Shown: piece after piece, positions 1,881-44,307 of the stretch | Layout: each line of letters begins with the position of its first letter | How positions within the stretch are numbered: position 1 is the first letter of the stretch | Source of the DNA: a virus | Strand: one strand, 5' to 3' | Length of the DNA: 45,322 bases | IMG/VR virus record: IMGVR_UViG_3300049893_001592 | Coordinates: 1 to 45,322 of that record | Position numbers and translations under genes: made by a program | Notes under the pieces: generated by a model | What the model was told of the DNA's origin: nothing | Databases searched by the model: none | What the model saw: the letters and a program-made list of their open reading frames with translations, nothing else

Positions 1881-2353
1881 TCTACATACCTGTCAGCGCG
1901 GATAAACTAATGGTTGTGGATGATGACGATGATGTACTGGACATTGTCATAGGCCGGGCCTGGACACTGGATAGATATGGCTATGTTCGCATGCGTAGAT
2001 TAGGTAAGTCGCTGTATATCCACAACCTTGTGTTAGGCAATAAGTCTCGTTGTGACCACATTAATAGAGATCGCCTCGACAATCGCCGGGCAAATCTTAG
2101 GCCCGTAACTTTGCGGGCAAACAGATTGAATGCGGAGAAGAATTCGAACAATACCTCCGGCTTTAGGGGAGTAACCGCAAAAGGCAATAAATGGCAGGCT
2201 CAAACCAAAATAAGTAATAAGTCAAAGTATCTTGGGTTGTTTGAATCTAAAGAAGACGCGGCGACCGCATACAATTTTGCAGTGTTTGACCCTTTAGACC
2301 CTTTCATACAGCTCAACACAGTTAGCCAACCTTGGCTGGAGGAGCAATTATGA
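1877..2353 (+). CDS. HNH homing endonuclease with AP2 DNA-binding domain
   Basis: 158 residues. The central region reads IHNLVLG (residues 48-54), then CDHINRDRLDNRRANLR (59-75), the beta-beta-alpha HNH fold with catalytic His at 61 and the Asn/Arg track. The C-terminal SGFRGVTAKGNKWQAQ to GLFESKEDAATAYN (94-133) is an AP2/ERF DNA-binding domain. This HNH-AP2 arrangement is typical of free-standing phage homing endonucleases, which nick a related intron-less or gene-less locus to spread. It overlaps its neighbours by four bases on both sides, so it is embedded in the operon without breaking it. The last 20 residues diverge from the usual ending. Confidence 0.88.
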   Translation: MIYIPVSADKLMVVDDDDDVLDIVIGRAWTLDRYGYVRMRRLGKSLYIHNLVLGNKSRCDHINRDRLDNRRANLRPVTLRANRLNAEKNSNNTSGFRGVTAKGNKWQAQTKISNKSKYLGLFESKEDAATAYNFAVFDPLDPFIQLNTVSQPWLEEQL

Positions 2354-3194: not shown

Positions 3195-3398
3195 ATGAAA
3201 TTTTACGTAGTGAGTGAAACAACGCTTAGAGAGTTTTTGGATCGCCACGCGCAGGGGATGACCTTAGAAGACGAGGATGCTAGCGTCTTGCGGGCAACCC
3301 CGGTAATCCAATGGGCCTCGCATAACGCGTCGGGGTACGCAGACGCCCACACCGCGCTGTCGCAGGAGCTGGCTAAGGATTTGGGGGAGAAGTATTGA
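3195..3398 (+). CDS. Hypothetical protein
   Basis: 67 residues, start two bases after the previous stop and preceded by GGGAGG, a good ribosome binding site. N-terminus MKFYVVSETTLREFLDRHAQG suggests a beta strand followed by a helix. It lacks the ALRAGQ signature, so it is not counted in the tandem family. No family recognised. Confidence 0.65.
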   Translation: MKFYVVSETTLREFLDRHAQGMTLEDEDASVLRATPVIQWASHNASGYADAHTALSQELAKDLGEKY

Positions 3399-4398: not shown

Positions 4399-5171
4399 TC
4401 TACTACGAGCATCGCCCGACTAAGATACGCCAGGGGCCGCCGCGCCTGGTTACTCGCGAGGAGCTTGACCAGCGCCGAGGCTTTCGCTCTGTATACGGAT
4501 GGCCAACCGAGGCCGCCGATCACGTCCGCACGACGGGCTCATCGGCCGGTCTTAAGTGGTTCCCTGTCTACAGCGACGAGCTGCTGCTGGATTTTGACGA
4601 CCGCCCGCATGACGCAAATGTAGCAATCACACTGATGGCTGAGTATGGTTATGCGTTTTCATGGTGGGAATCCGGCGGCCGATCTGTACACCTTCACATA
4701 AAAATTGAGCCTATGCTTGGGTCAAATGTGCCCGCCAGTCAAAAACAATTTGTGGCGGCTACATTTCCCGGCGCAGACCTGGCTTTTTATCATGCCGCCG
4801 GGATGTACCGCCTTCCTGGTACAGCACACGAGAAAAACCCTGGTCACTATAAACGCATGGTAGAAGAGTTTAGGGGCAGACCGCTGGCTATACCGCTTAT
4901 CAACCAGCCGCTGTTCCGACCGTCGGCATCAGGCGGCAGCCAGCGCGACCCGGCAGACCTGGATGCTATCCTTACACACATGTTATTTAAAACCGTCCAC
5001 GAGGGCGAAGGGAGAAACAAACATGCTTACAATATGGCTAAGCTACTTAAAGACCTGGGCCACGACTATGCGCGGGCGCTGGATGTTGTGGAGGGATGGA
5101 GCGGAGACTTCGCTGTCCCGCCTATTAGTCGAACAGAACTTGAAGCCACAGTTAGATCTGCCTACCGATGA
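4395..5171 (+). CDS. Archaeo-eukaryotic-type primase (AEP/prim-pol) with PriCT-like C-terminus
   Basis: 258 residues. The N-terminal catalytic domain shows the three AEP signatures: LLLDFDD at 63-69 (metal-binding DxD), GGRSVHLHI at 94-102 (the SxH motif) and FPGADLAF at 124-131 (third acidic position), followed by MYRLPGTAHEK. Residues about 190-258 (RNKHAYNMAKLLKDLG, then ISRTELEATVRSAYR) match the PriCT-1-like helical domain found behind AEP primases. It would synthesise primers for the family A polymerase. It is translationally coupled to the membrane protein before it. Phages more often use a DnaG/TOPRIM-type primase with a DnaB-type helicase, so this pairing is notable. Confidence 0.82.
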   Translation: MIYYEHRPTKIRQGPPRLVTREELDQRRGFRSVYGWPTEAADHVRTTGSSAGLKWFPVYSDELLLDFDDRPHDANVAITLMAEYGYAFSWWESGGRSVHLHIKIEPMLGSNVPASQKQFVAATFPGADLAFYHAAGMYRLPGTAHEKNPGHYKRMVEEFRGRPLAIPLINQPLFRPSASGGSQRDPADLDAILTHMLFKTVHEGEGRNKHAYNMAKLLKDLGHDYARALDVVEGWSGDFAVPPISRTELEATVRSAYR

Positions 5172-32031: not shown

Positions 32032-33972
32032 TTAAACTACGCCGGCTTGCTGGAGAAGCGCGCCGGTATCTACGGGAGCCGGCATACCTGCTACCTCGGT
32101 AGGAGCTGCGGCAGGCTGCTGAGGCATCTCGTTTGCCATGAGCTGCTCCCGTTCGCGTATGTGCTGGCGGATCAGATCTTGCAGCTCAGGTTCCAGATAC
32201 TTAAACTCGGAAGTTTCCAGATATTGTTTAGCGGCAGCCAGGCGGCCCACATGGTTTTCCATTTCTTTTGGCGCTATATACGTGGGCTTACCGGCTCTGA
32301 AGAACGCGATCATTTCTTCAAACACTTCCATTTGGCGATCGGCCGCCATGTCGTTAATATCGTAGAGGCTTTCCAGCTCATTCAGTTTCAGGTGTTTGAG
32401 GATGGTCTGCATACTGATGCCGGCTTTCTCAAACATTGGCATCATGAGCATGATCGCTTCGCGACGCATGTTCGGGTCAATTGGCAAGCTGGTACCGTAT
32501 TCCGCAATGATATCATAGCCGTCTTTAATGTCGGCGCCTTTGAGCTTGATCGACTCGAAGGCTTTGTCTTTGCCTATGACCTTTACGATGCGCGGCGTGG
32601 TCCAGTACATCTTGACCAGCTCAAGATAGTCCTTGTAGATCTCGCGAATGACGCCCTCGTACTTTTTAAGCAGTCGGCGGTGAATGGCGGTACCGGCCTG
32701 GATGGCCGTCTGCTGCGACACGGCAGACTGCTCGCGCTGCTGGATGCCAAGCATGGAATCGTTAATGCCGTACATATCCTGCAGCTCTTGGCGGTAGCTG
32801 TCGCGGAACTGCCACATATCTGGCATAAGGGCCGGCGGATTCACGAAGCGGATCGAGTTGGCATCCTGCGCGCCGGAGACCTTAATCCAGTCCCAGCTGC
32901 TGTTAGACACATCGTCATCAGCCACGTCGGCCGTGTCGGGTATAACCATGCGCACGACGTTGTGAGCCTGTATGCTGTCTAGCGTGTTGCTGTCGATGCG
33001 GTTTAGCATGTCCTGCACGCGGCTTGCGTATTCAGCCACGGACTTGGCGTACACGCTGCCGGGCACGTCAACAAAGGTCAAGAACTTGTACGGCAGGCCG
33101 GCGTTAGGGTGCTTATTCTTGCAGGGCTTGCCCAAGAAAGTGAAGTCTTTCAAAAAGCATGCATAGCGGCCAACCATGCCATTAACGGGCAGGCCGCGTT
33201 CGGTGTAGTGAAAGATCTCGACGCACGGTTCTTTTTTGGCCGCGTCTTTCTGGCCCATGATAGGATCGTAGGATGCCTCGGGGTCGTACTCGAACTGGTT
33301 CTCTTCAATTTTGTCTTTGTGCTCCGGCCAACGGTAAACCGCCTCTTCAATCGTCATAAGCTCACGCTCAAAGACGTGGCGGATGCTACGAATATCCATG
33401 GCCTTCGGGTCTACCCAAAGGTTAAATATATTGATGTGGCGCACCTCATTGTCGCCCGTCATCTCCAGCTCGCCGCTCTCTTCGTCAAAGTCTTTGATTT
33501 CGCCGGCGTCTTTGTCGTGGTACACCTTGATGCAGCCAATGCCGCACACAAGTGCGTACAGGTTCATCAAGTCCACTTCTTCTGGAATGTCTTTGGTGTC
33601 GCGGGCATGGCGCGCAACGCGATCGGCGGCGTCAGCCTTTTGAGAGTCGGCCGGGTCGGTAGTAGCCGGGCGCACGATCACGCTGGGCGGGTTGGCTGAC
33701 AGTTGGCTGTGGATAAAGCGCGTGTATTTAAAGATGTAGTTGATGCCTATTGCGGAGTCGCCGCTTTCGACGTCGCCGCTAGCCAGCTGCGCCAAGTTCT
33801 CAAATGTTATGTTGGCGGTGCCGGCATTGCGGAAACCCATGTTTCCAGCGTACTGGCGAAGGTTGGCGGCCCAGGTAGCTTCGAAGGCGGCGCGGTAACC
33901 TTTGGCTTCAGCAAAGAGCATTTCCATGCGCTTGCGCCACTCATCCATGGTCCAGCTGACAACTTTAGCCAC
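32032..33972 (-). CDS. Portal protein
   Basis: 646 residues from a GTG start with AAGGAG upstream. Long helical N-terminus, then a region typical of podophage portals (AIGINYIFKYTRFIHSQLSA, NIFNLWVDPKA) and a Gln-rich stretch (QREQSAVSQQTAIQAGTA) where portals have the tunnel-loop region, ending in a Pro/Gln-rich tail. Portals form the dodecameric ring at one capsid vertex through which the terminase pumps DNA. Its place next to the terminase and scaffold genes fits. The sequence itself is diverged, so the exact family is open. Confidence 0.8.
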   Translation of the reverse strand: MAKVVSWTMDEWRKRMEMLFAEAKGYRAAFEATWAANLRQYAGNMGFRNAGTANITFENLAQLASGDVESGDSAIGINYIFKYTRFIHSQLSANPPSVIVRPATTDPADSQKADAADRVARHARDTKDIPEEVDLMNLYALVCGIGCIKVYHDKDAGEIKDFDEESGELEMTGDNEVRHINIFNLWVDPKAMDIRSIRHVFERELMTIEEAVYRWPEHKDKIEENQFEYDPEASYDPIMGQKDAAKKEPCVEIFHYTERGLPVNGMVGRYACFLKDFTFLGKPCKNKHPNAGLPYKFLTFVDVPGSVYAKSVAEYASRVQDMLNRIDSNTLDSIQAHNVVRMVIPDTADVADDDVSNSSWDWIKVSGAQDANSIRFVNPPALMPDMWQFRDSYRQELQDMYGINDSMLGIQQREQSAVSQQTAIQAGTAIHRRLLKKYEGVIREIYKDYLELVKMYWTTPRIVKVIGKDKAFESIKLKGADIKDGYDIIAEYGTSLPIDPNMRREAIMLMMPMFEKAGISMQTILKHLKLNELESLYDINDMAADRQMEVFEEMIAFFRAGKPTYIAPKEMENHVGRLAAAKQYLETSEFKYLEPELQDLIRQHIREREQLMANEMPQQPAAAPTEVAGMPAPVDTGALLQQAGVV

Positions 33973-41827: not shown

Positions 41828-42118
41828 TTACTCCTGTATAATTAACGCTTTATACCCGGTCTCCATGAGAACGCACAGCGCCTCTTCTTGTTCTGGCTGC
41901 AGACCTTCGCTGATGCCGGACAGCATGAGCAACGCGTGCATTACTTCGTGGCGTATGATTTCGTACGTGGCGTCTTTGCCGTGGCCGTTGTGGACGTAGA
42001 TCGTGCGCTCCTCCGGCACGATGTGTCCCTCGTAGTCTTCTTTACTGAAGTTGCGGTAGCGGATCTTATATTTGGTACCCAGCACGTCAATGCTGCGCGG
42101 GCGTTTCCAGTCTCTCAT
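41828..42118 (-). CDS. Zinc-metallopeptidase-like protein (HEVMH motif)
   Basis: 96 residues with GGAGGCACCG before the ATG, a strong site. HEVMH at 57-61 is preceded by ATYEIIR and followed by ALLMLSGISEGL and an acidic helix (EQEEALC, 76-82), as in compact ImmA/IrrE- or SprT-like zinc proteases with one metal site. Such proteins cleave regulators or repair-linked proteins, but the phage target is unknown. It is the first gene of the long leftward arm, right after the non-coding control region. Confidence 0.68.
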   Translation of the reverse strand: MRDWKRPRSIDVLGTKYKIRYRNFSKEDYEGHIVPEERTIYVHNGHGKDATYEIIRHEVMHALLMLSGISEGLQPEQEEALCVLMETGYKALIIQE

Positions 42119-42184
42119 CGGTGCCTCCGAACTGTCTAGAGCTTATCGGCTGGCTGGCTAATGTCGTGACCATCGCGATTTTGC

Positions 42185-42213
42185 TTGACTTTTCTTTGCG
42201 TATATGATAGGGT
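42185..42213 (+). promoter_or_regulatory. Weak sigma-70-type promoter candidate
   Basis: TTGACT, 17-base spacer, TAGGGT. Its -35 region and first spacer bases (TTGACTTTT.TTT) closely resemble the promoter at 42641-42669, which supports it, but the -10 is poor. It would read rightward into the antisense of the tRNA-like element. Confidence 0.35.
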
Positions 42214-42263
42214 ATATAGGGTTGTGGCGGGTGGGCATATATAACTATAATCATTATATTAGT

Positions 42264-42367
42264 TACGTGCTGAGGGATTCGAACCCTCGTGCGCCCAGCA
42301 TACTGTCTAGTCAGGCCCGCTGTACACTATCCACTAGATAAGGCTTAAGCCGCTCGCCCAAGCACGC
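42264..42367 (-). tRNA. tRNA-like gene with non-standard central region, anticodon not assigned
   Basis: Reading leftward, a 7-bp acceptor (GCGTGCT with AGCACGT, one G-T pair) encloses a perfect T arm (GAGGG, loop TTCGAAT, CCCTC). Behind the acceptor lies a class-II-like D arm (GGC, loop, GCC). The remaining 50 or so bases are too long for a normal tRNA: they contain a second D-arm-like stretch (TATCTAGTGGATAG), a UUAUC/GAUAG hairpin and a CAGC/GCTG hairpin, and no standard 7-base anticodon loop. No 3' CCA is encoded. It may be a tRNA with a large variable arm, an intron, a pseudogene, or a tRNA mimic. Confidence 0.5.
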
Positions 42368-42397
42368 AATTAAAGTGGTCGAGGGGGACGCTACGCC

Positions 42398-42546
42398 CCT
42401 GAGCCGTTACTGTGGGTTTGGGCGGAAGGGCTTTTCATCCTTCCTTTAACCCGCTCAGGTTGTTAGCCTGTACACCCGCTTCCCACGTGTTCACGGCGCT
42501 CTATTGTCTTTCGTGTTGGCCTCCAGGGCATCCCTCTCCACGAAGG
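42398..42546 (-). ncRNA. Structured RNA region: two nested stem-loops between a promoter and the tRNA-like gene
   Basis: Stem-loop 1 (42398-42459): CCTGAGC pairs with GCTCAGG and, on the same strand, GGGTT with AACCC, then GGAAGG with CCTTCC across a nine-base loop; about 18 pairs. Stem-loop 2 (42508-42546): CTTTCGTG with CACGAAGG (one T-G), and AGGG with CCCT inside it. Only frames without gene-like features run through it. A consensus promoter (42596-42624) reads into it leftward. It may be an untranslated leader, an RNA-protein site, or a free RNA. No known RNA family was recognised. Confidence 0.5.
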
Positions 42547-42595
42547 GTTTGGGTCTATCTTTTCTGCCCAGCTACCGACTTCTCGACCTACGCTT

Positions 42596-42624
42596 ACTAT
42601 ATCAACAACCAGCGCCGCTGTCAA
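42596..42624 (-). promoter_or_regulatory. Strong sigma-70-type promoter, leftward
   Basis: TTGACA, 17-base spacer, TATAGT on the leftward strand: a perfect -35 and a -10 with four of six consensus bases plus the key T and A positions. Its start would be near 42589, leading into the structured RNA, the tRNA-like element and then the virion genes. Confidence 0.68.
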
Positions 42625-42640
42625 CCCTAAAAATACACGC

Positions 42641-42669
42641 TTGACTTTTGTTTCGAAATATGGTATTGT
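42641..42669 (+). promoter_or_regulatory. Sigma-70-type promoter, rightward
   Basis: TTGACT, 17-base spacer, TATTGT. An inverted repeat (GTGAG, six bases, CTCAC, 42668-42683) overlaps the -10 and the start site and may be an operator or 5' hairpin. Faces the promoter at 42764-42792, about 95 bases away. Confidence 0.6.
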
Positions 42670-42683
42670 GAGTTTGTACTCAC

Positions 42684-42730
42684 GGCTACACGTTAACATA
42701 TGCGAGGTGTGTGTAGCCTGGGCCGCATAT
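42684..42730. repeat. Interlocked inverted repeats able to form an H-type pseudoknot
   Basis: Stem 1: GGCTACAC at 42684-42691 with GTGTAGCC at 42711-42718 (8 bp). Stem 2: ATATGCG at 42698-42704 with CGCATAT at 42724-42730 (7 bp). Stem 2 begins inside the loop of stem 1 and closes beyond it, the topology of an H-type pseudoknot with loops of 6, 6 and 5 bases. Both RNA strands could form it. It lies between two face-to-face promoters. Confidence 0.6.
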
Positions 42731-42763
42731 TAGTGGAAGGGCAGCATTTTCGCCCAACCTGTC

Positions 42764-42792
42764 ATTGTACCGAATCCATGGCTATATGTCAA
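42764..42792 (-). promoter_or_regulatory. Strong sigma-70-type promoter, leftward
   Basis: TTGACA, 17-base spacer, TACAAT on the leftward strand, the same -35/-10 pair as the promoter at 44279-44307. It reads through the pseudoknot element towards the promoter at 42596-42624 in tandem. Confidence 0.68.
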
Positions 42793-42841
42793 CAATAAAA
42801 TTGGCAGGCATTCGCGTTTTATGAATACAGAGAAAATCGTG

Positions 42842-42868
42842 AATAGCCAGTGGCTGCCCCTGGTTATT
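42842..42868. other. Hairpin across the stop codon of the 42864-43319 gene
   Basis: AATAGCCAG, nine-base loop, CTGGTTATT: nine pairs with one G-T. No U run follows on the leftward strand, so at best a weak terminator or a stability element. Confidence 0.4.
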
Positions 42869-43319
42869 GACCGGCTGATTTAAGCTTCTTACTCTTAGAC
42901 GCAATGTAAGAATCCAGCTCGGCGGCCGACATCTTGTCGAGGTCCTTGCCGATGACCCCTGGCTGCTCTTTAGCTGGGCCGTAACCAGCGTATCTCAATA
43001 GCATTTCGGCCGCGCGCACTTGGTCGGACGTCTTGGCTTCCGCGTCTTTGCCGATCAGGTCACTACCGCTCATCTCCACAATGTCGATCAAACGGCGAAT
43101 GGCCGCTTCGACGCCCGCTTCGAGGAGCGCCTCATTGGCTGATTCATCTAGGAACCACTCGCGGAACTCATTGTTTTTAAGGGAGATTTGCACGTCGAGG
43201 CAGCCGGAAACGCGCGCAATGGCGGCGTCGTCCATGTCGTCGGGCACGAGCGCCTGGTTCTTAGCGATGCGTTGCCAGAACTTCGCCTTGGCTATCTTGT
43301 GCTTGCGGCTGATTTGCAT
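42864..43319 (-). CDS. Helical DNA-binding protein, terminase-small-subunit-like (tentative)
   Basis: 151 residues with AAAGGAAAC before the ATG. Central helices fit small terminase or related phage HTH proteins: DDAAIARVSGCLDVQISLKNN followed by FREWFLDESANEALLEAGVE and a C-terminal helix region DQVRAAEMLLRYAGYGP. Such proteins bind DNA and, with the terminase large subunit, start packaging. It is far from terL (about 7 kb away) and shares an operon with a sigma factor, so a regulatory role is equally open. The start overlaps the sigma gene by 59 bases. Confidence 0.55.
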   Translation of the reverse strand: MQISRKHKIAKAKFWQRIAKNQALVPDDMDDAAIARVSGCLDVQISLKNNEFREWFLDESANEALLEAGVEAAIRRLIDIVEMSGSDLIGKDAEAKTSDQVRAAEMLLRYAGYGPAKEQPGVIGKDLDKMSAAELDSYIASKSKKLKSAGQ

Positions 43320-43821
43320 AAGTTTCCTTTAATTTTGCGATGATGGCGCTGAACAGCTGCGACACGCGCGACTCGCTGACGCCAAAGACGCGGCCGATCT
43401 CTTTGAGGGTCATGCCGCTCAGGTAGTAGCCAGCCATGTCGTAGTCGCGGCCGTCGAGCGTTTCGAGTGCGGCGTAAAGATCCAGCCGCTCCTCGGCGCC
43501 TATCTTGTCGGAATTCTTGTGGAGAACATCAGCCAGCGCCGTAATGTGGCTGTTGAAGGCAGCGACGGCCTCCGCTTTATCGTGGTTGCGCGGCTTGTGG
43601 TATTTGCGGTACCAGTCCATGAAGGCGCTCTTGACGGCGTGATCGGCGAAGGTGCGGAGGGAGGCGCGCTCTGGCTGCCAACGGGGAAGGCGCTCGAGGA
43701 CGGTCACCCACGCCATGGATGCCATGTCTTCACACTCCTGCGGCCCCAGACTCTTCCAACGGCGTAGGTTGGCGCTGATGACTCCTTGCACGACGGTCGT
43801 CTGCTCTTTTGACAGTTTCAT
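43261..43821 (-). CDS. Phage RNA polymerase sigma factor (sigma-70 family, ECF/FliA-like)
   Basis: 186 residues. Region 2-like segment: QECEDMASMAWVTVLERLP, then FADHAVKSAFMDWYRKYHK, with the aromatic and basic residues that bind and melt the -10 element. Region 4: AALETLDGRDYDMAGYYLSG, then MTLKEIGRVFGVSESRVSQLFSAI, a clear helix-turn-helix of the kind that reads -35. No region 1. A phage-encoded sigma would redirect host polymerase to phage promoters. The gene follows a strong host-type promoter at 44279-44307 through two small genes. GGGAG is about ten bases before the ATG, a rather long spacing. Confidence 0.8.
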   Translation of the reverse strand: MKLSKEQTTVVQGVISANLRRWKSLGPQECEDMASMAWVTVLERLPRWQPERASLRTFADHAVKSAFMDWYRKYHKPRNHDKAEAVAAFNSHITALADVLHKNSDKIGAEERLDLYAALETLDGRDYDMAGYYLSGMTLKEIGRVFGVSESRVSQLFSAIIAKLKETYANQPQAQDSQGEVLATHR

Positions 43822-44278: not shown

Positions 44279-44307
44279 ATTGTAAGATAAATGTGACAGA
44301 TTGTCAA
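44279..44307 (-). promoter_or_regulatory. Strong sigma-70-type promoter with two overlapping palindromes
   Basis: TTGACA, 17 bases, TACAAT on the leftward strand. TTACAA-A-TTGTAA covers the -10 and TGACA-ATC-TGTCA covers the -35, both perfect inverted repeats, so a dimeric repressor may act here. It drives the membrane protein, winged-helix and sigma factor genes. Confidence 0.7.

Follow-up and report, generated by a model that had tools for sequence, protein, structure and literature searches.

Predicted opposed promoters at a phage sigma-operon boundary: a partly conserved arrangement around an over-read RNA element

Introduction

Do two promoters that face each other in a phage genome, with interlocked inverted repeats between them, constitute an RNA switch? 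The locus lies in the window, by which we mean the whole 45,322-base virus record IMG/VR IMGVR_UViG_3300049893_001592. A sequence-only reading of this DNA had described a rightward TTGACT-17-TATTGT promoter (PR) and a leftward TTGACA-17-TACAAT promoter (P2) flanking a pseudoknot-capable element, and had proposed that their overlapping RNAs form a switch or that the RNA itself is a sensor. Our analysis leads to a different emphasis: the promoter arrangement is real and partly conserved, and the RNA element was over-read. If PR works as proposed, an opposing antisense promoter controls the hand-over from the sigma operon to the structural genes in these uncultivated phages; the more familiar cases of opposed promoters come from lysis-lysogeny switches of temperate phages. 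The locus is of moderate interest because of the uncharacterised phage group and the sigma-operon boundary, and it would provide a 29-bp promoter signature for a group to which nothing in the searched collection of annotated phages is closely related.

Genomic context and relatives

The rightward genes at the left end of the window are those of replication (part of DNA polymerase A, an HNH endonuclease, a helicase, a phosphoesterase and a MazG-like protein), and among the leftward genes, which extend from about 44.3 down to 10.7 kb, are those for a sigma-70-like factor, the terminase, the portal and an SU10-type adaptor. The promoter element sits in a 745-bp gap (42119–42863) without convincing genes, bounded by the sigma operon's final gene (42864–43319) and by the next leftward gene (41828–42118). 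Near the promoter pair are the genes for the sigma factor, which also matches the PHROG 1740 sigma factor (1.6e-13), for unknown proteins and for a DA1-like/phrog_1233 protein. As the sequence-only reading had observed, no rightward gene lies directly downstream of PR, and the next leftward gene begins more than 560 nt downstream of the interlocked repeats.

The region is covered by two IMG/VR relatives only, 3300033067_000948 (L002/L006) and 3300031885_000026 (L003/L008), whose flanking proteins are 82% and 66% identical, respectively, to that of the window. The coding DNA of L002 aligns with the window at 77%, and its intergenic DNA is unalignable except for a stretch of about 80 bp close to the gene downstream; the intergenic DNA of L003 is likewise unalignable, and a comparison of the complete intergenic DNA with the relatives' records returned no similar stretch. 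In the phage division of GenBank, neither a DNA search with 41.0–43.9 kb nor a tblastn search with the flanking protein gave a match. Profile and terminase searches of viral contigs returned the same relatives and one short fragment that stops short of the region, and the flanking protein was not found in the bacterial genomes searched.

The promoter cluster

A promoter scan of 5.3 kb gave 11 sites, against 3.5 ± 2.1 in shuffles. When the sequence was read directly, every element listed by the sequence-only reading was found in its place (Table 1), and two that it had overlooked were added: P3 (42624–42596), which like P2 points toward the structural operon on its left, and a further PR copy at 42185. 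The leftward trio P1, P2 and P3 lies at 44307, 42792 and 42624 in the window and at 233, 1658 and 1863 in L006. The order and orientation of P2, P3 and PR are alike in the window and in L002, the nearest relative. The facing promoters look real.

Table 1. Predicted features at the sigma-operon boundary, in window coordinates. Transcription starts were placed 7 nt past the −10 box.
Feature	Position	Strand	Details
P1, sigma-operon promoter, TTGACA-17-TACAAT	44279–44307	−	Conserved: L006 233–261, L008 2730–2758
Sigma-70-like factor gene, regions 2 and 4	43261–43821	−	Pfam Sigma70_r4 7e-9, r2 4e-6
Gene of unknown function, 3' end toward PR	42864–43319	−	ORF; identity 82% in L002, 66% in L003
P2, sigma70-type, TTGACA-17-TACAAT	42764–42792	−	11/12 consensus; TTGACA 42792–42787, 17 nt, TACAAT 42769–42764; predicted start ~42757; L002 counterpart TTGACA-17-TATTCT, 1658–1686
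Interval separating the P2 and PR −10 boxes, 94 bp	42670–42763		
Two inverted repeats that interlock, of 8 and 7 bp; H-type pseudoknot possible in either transcript	42684–42730		8-bp arms GGCTACAC 42684–42691 and GTGTAGCC 42711–42718; 7-bp arms ATATGCG 42698–42704 and CGCATAT 42724–42730; inter-arm distance 19 nt in both
Palindrome GTGAGT-TTGT-ACTCAC, perfect 6 bp, over predicted PR start	42668–42683		
PR, TTGACTTTTGTTTCGAAATATGGTATTGT, extended −10	42641–42669	+	9/12 match; TTGACT 42641–42646, 17 nt, TATTGT 42664–42669; TG one base ahead of −10; predicted start ~42676
P3, TTGACA-17-TATAGT with TG	42596–42624	−	11/12; back to back with PR; counterparts L002 1863–1892, L003 6743–6771
Second PR-type copy, TTGACTTTTCTTTGCGTATATGATAGGGT	42185–42213	+	Top match of the relatives-only matrix

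L002 carries a near-copy of PR (TTGACTTTTGCTTGCGGATATGCTATAAA) on its reverse strand at 1828–1800, just upstream of its P3, and the motif common to both is TTGACTTTT..TT....ATATG.TA. The corresponding gap of L003 is without a PR copy; the PR-type element of that relative, at 4762 (−), belongs to a different stretch of intergenic DNA, which is upstream of P1. At the antisense position matching PR, L003 has a perfect (12/12) TTGACA-17-TATAAT of different sequence, 34 bp from its P3. When a scoring matrix built solely from the L002 and L003 copies was run over the 45-kb window, the site at 42185 (+) ranked first (21.5 bits) and PR itself ranked second (15.2 bits). None of 200 shuffles of the whole window reached 21.5 bits and 43 of 200 reached 15.2 bits; when only the intergenic region was shuffled, 8 of 2000 attained the latter score. 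Support is therefore strong for the site at 42185 and moderate for PR, whose case is helped by the corresponding location of the near-copy in L002; PR is conserved in that relative. The two copies in the window agree in 21 of 29 core positions and their flanks are unrelated (10/40 and 7/40), as expected of a constrained motif and not of a duplication. All four phage sites of this type have TTGAC, a 17-bp spacer and TG before the −10 box, as in extended −10 promoters of the sigma70/SigA class.

Outside the phage group, a search of 2.9 million viral contigs with the strict core pattern TTGACTTTNNNTTGCGNATRTGNTA returned the two relatives alone, and the pattern also matches ten bacterial records (L015–L024), every one of which is labelled as Clostridia or belongs to that class. 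In all ten of the latter, the −10-like hexamer after the core ends in T, a base outside the search pattern, and in L023 a gene for tRNA-Met begins 15 bp past the −10 of the match. These promoter-like matches support the promoter reading and hint that the host may be a clostridium, with the caution that the core pattern itself includes promoter hexamers. As to the spacer marking a widespread clostridial promoter class, 394 genomes of one order gave two matches to the real spacer (one of them the seed) against none for a permuted spacer, numbers too small to support such a class.

The strongest alternative, but still an unlikely one, is that PR is a non-functional chance match and that P2 and P3 merely feed the structural operon. 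Promoter-like matches are plentiful in AT-rich DNA, and PR lies in such a context (G+C 0.33) and matches the consensus at 9 of 12 positions; against this, the 29-bp core has been kept in L002 amid unalignable intergenic DNA, and L003 has an independent 12/12 antisense promoter.

Antisense path and proposed mechanism

Between the predicted starts of P2 and PR there are 81 bp in the window and 100 bp in L002. In both phages the pair is convergent over a short distance, and the predicted RNAs would overlap, as had been suggested, by about 81 nt. The gap from −35 to −35 between PR and P3 is 16 bp in the window, 34 bp in L002 and 34 bp in L003 (there for its own antisense promoter), and P2 lies 72 bp past the stop of the upstream gene in the window and 31 bp past it in L002. 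The G+C content of 42676–42757 is 0.52, compared with 0.33 to 0.37 in the promoters. In the direction of PR, no terminator-like hairpins were found across the sigma operon of the window or of L002, and the antisense path of L003 holds weak terminator candidates. Small rightward reading frames, picked out by eye, are not conserved between the window and L002.

Our preferred reading, to which we assign a probability of about 0.5, is that a promoter cluster marks the boundary of the sigma operon and the structural operon, in which PR would oppose P2 and send antisense RNA through the sigma operon. The positions, orientation and conservation of these promoters and the lack of an obvious terminator are observed features of the DNA; the activity of PR, the timing and the interference we infer. 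Placed rightward, back to back with P3 and facing P2, an active PR would bring polymerase into collision with P2 or occlude it. Its RNA would probably be antisense to the sigma-factor genes, running through gene 42864–43319 and then the sigma gene without an intrinsic terminator between them, and collision, occlusion or antisense pairing would limit the output of P2 and of the sigma operon until PR is off. Which promoters act early and which act late is an assumption of the model. The structured 94-bp interval that separates PR from P2 would be a modulator at most, through pausing or RNA stability, and perhaps has no role.

Several points weigh against the opposed-promoter model: the 9/12 match of PR and its moderate score when judged from the relatives alone; the small number of informative relatives (two), of which L003 lacks P2 and has an antisense promoter of other sequence; and the presence of the L003 PR-type element (4762) in an intergenic region elsewhere.

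The nearest parallel is phage 186, in which pL is opposed by pR and undergoes about 5.6-fold interference (PMC6593788). Here too, a pair of phage promoters lies face to face a short distance apart, and one may interfere with the other. Unlike 186, whose pair is a lysis-lysogeny switch with the repressor CI, this locus adjoins a sigma factor and structural genes, and no lysogeny-repressor gene of the kind that defines the convergent 186 type was found next to the promoter pair; it would work like pR-pL at most by analogy. For cis-antisense transcription from opposing promoters in bacteria, tuning and switch behaviour are described (PMC4731013, PMC4519249). The likeness to those systems is a promoter that sits at an operon's 3' end and is aimed back into it, which in our case is predicted from sequence.

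The interlocked repeats and alternative readings

The interlocked repeats are present at 42684–42730, as the sequence-only reading had noted; as a working part they are not supported, being unconserved in L002 and L003 and belonging to no Rfam family. Our count took in every perfect interlocked stem pair of the whole window with a span of at most 60 nt. Interlocks of 8/7 bp or better number two, against a shuffle mean of 0.36, the second being inside the portal gene at 32393, and at least one was present in 9 of 25 shuffles of the window; for 7/7 bp or better, the window has three where 1.28 are expected. By a stacking-energy score over the 133-nt promoter interval, the pseudoknot ranks above 298 of 300 shuffles on either strand. 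It is thus locally unusual but, by the window-wide shuffle counts, not significant for a feature picked from 45 kb. In the equivalent interval of L002, interlocked GCUAGC/UCCCG stems are marginal (6/5 bp; 18 of 300 shuffles were as good), and interlocks in L003 are no better than chance, as are other pseudoknots at 42370–42595 of the window. The intergenic DNA of both relatives is unalignable for compensatory changes, the marginal interlock of L002 being the one counterpart. Loss of stem pairing while the sequence varies, which was to count against the element, is close to what was found, but the sequences are too diverged to align.

Rfam gave no match over the element to riboswitch, ribozyme or sRNA families at the gathering cut-off or at E up to 10; its low-threshold matches other than tRNA were at chance level. 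The stem-arm pattern had no further copy in viral contigs. Compared with shuffles, neither the leftward 498-nt RNA (z −0.74) nor the rightward 421-nt RNA (z −0.75) folds better. The pseudoknot is unconserved and may be of chance origin; a functional RNA at the repeats would rest on a single sequence and is not supported, or not yet.

The inverted repeat that had been noticed over the rightward start is present and extends to a perfect 6-bp GTGAGT/ACTCAC palindrome, which is possibly a hairpin or an operator. It occurs once in the window, where 1.32 matches are expected at up to two mismatches. An operator network was rejected, a second copy not being found in the window.

With the palindrome at the predicted start and the interlocked repeats about 8 nt further on, PR could be real and its product a structured trans-acting small RNA with a 5' hairpin and a pseudoknot, the antisense overlap being incidental. 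The pseudoknot ranking just given would suit such an RNA, and the PR-type core is conserved where the transcript is not. We regard this as distinctly unlikely, because the product has neither sequence nor convincing structure conserved in L002 and L003, no terminator delimits a short RNA and the folding z-score (−1.25) is ordinary.

The spacer of the PR-type element is more conserved than a plain sigma70 promoter needs, and two copies share one intergenic region, as might be expected if the element were the binding site of a phage regulator or of a replication or packaging protein and not a promoter. Such a role is improbable, given that promoter geometry is kept in all four phage copies, that all ten bacterial core matches have a −10-like hexamer ending in T, and that one of these lies 15 bp before a tRNA-Met gene.

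The opposed-promoter model also fares better than the original proposal, in which both of the overlapping RNAs adopt a pseudoknot fold and either act on one another or serve as ligand sensors. The repeats would lie within both transcripts, and L002 has its weaker interlock in the same interval. Nevertheless, this switch or sensor reading is very improbable: its stems are not preserved in the relatives, with L003 at chance level, neither Rfam nor the viral contigs hold a match to the element or a copy of its arms, and of the two interlocks of this size in the window (0.36 expected) one is in coding sequence. That a pseudoknot shared by the P2 and PR RNAs toggles between intramolecular folding and antisense pairing, and so times the shift from the sigma operon to the structural genes, is the least probable reading of all.

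Known phage RNA structures resemble the element in part. The T4 gene 32 leader is a phage RNA pseudoknot near a transcript 5' end (PMC535899); unlike that leader, the window element has no coding sequence close behind it. As with the theta (HDV-like) ribozymes of phages (PMC10879173), a pseudoknot-capable phage RNA has a tRNA-like sequence in its neighbourhood. Theta ribozymes lie at the tRNA 3' end and require a nested double pseudoknot (PMC10879173), whereas the window element precedes the tRNA-like sequence by about 320 nt and offers only 6-nt loops for the ribozyme P3 hairpin. An HDV-like or theta ribozyme, which would need that hairpin and a catalytic C and would cleave at the tRNA 3' end, was rejected, since 6 nt between arms cannot hold the P3 hairpin, the position relative to the tRNA-like sequence is wrong and there is no Rfam match. 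A type III toxin-antitoxin RNA, which requires tandem pseudoknot repeats immediately ahead of a toxin gene, was likewise discarded, as the element is a single copy without an adjoining rightward gene.

Other elements of the intergenic DNA

A tRNA-like sequence at 42264–42367 (−) matches the Rfam tRNA family with 32.3 bits (cut-off 29). Its acceptor, D and T arms are good and a normal anticodon arm is missing; ARAGORN calls it only as an intron-containing tRNA-Cys, with a score of 46. Transcripts from P2 and P3 would pass through it, and a transcript from the site at 42185 (+) would cross it antisense. The L002 position aligned to that site (2089–2061, reverse) is degraded.

Upstream of gene 41828–42118, an 84-bp stretch is 71% conserved between the window (about 42130–42254, minus strand) and L002 (2014–2097), and L003 has a similar CCC-rich motif. 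This stretch could be the start of a short peptide, judged by eye, or may be a DNA or RNA element. Just past its P3, L002 has a folded sequence of about 90 nt (1899–1991, plus strand) with an 11-nt closing stem and several hairpins (z −2.4), which is absent from Rfam and from the window. In L003, a hammerhead ribozyme of type II scores 45.2 bits (cut-off 37) at 3201–3263 (−), between two rightward genes.
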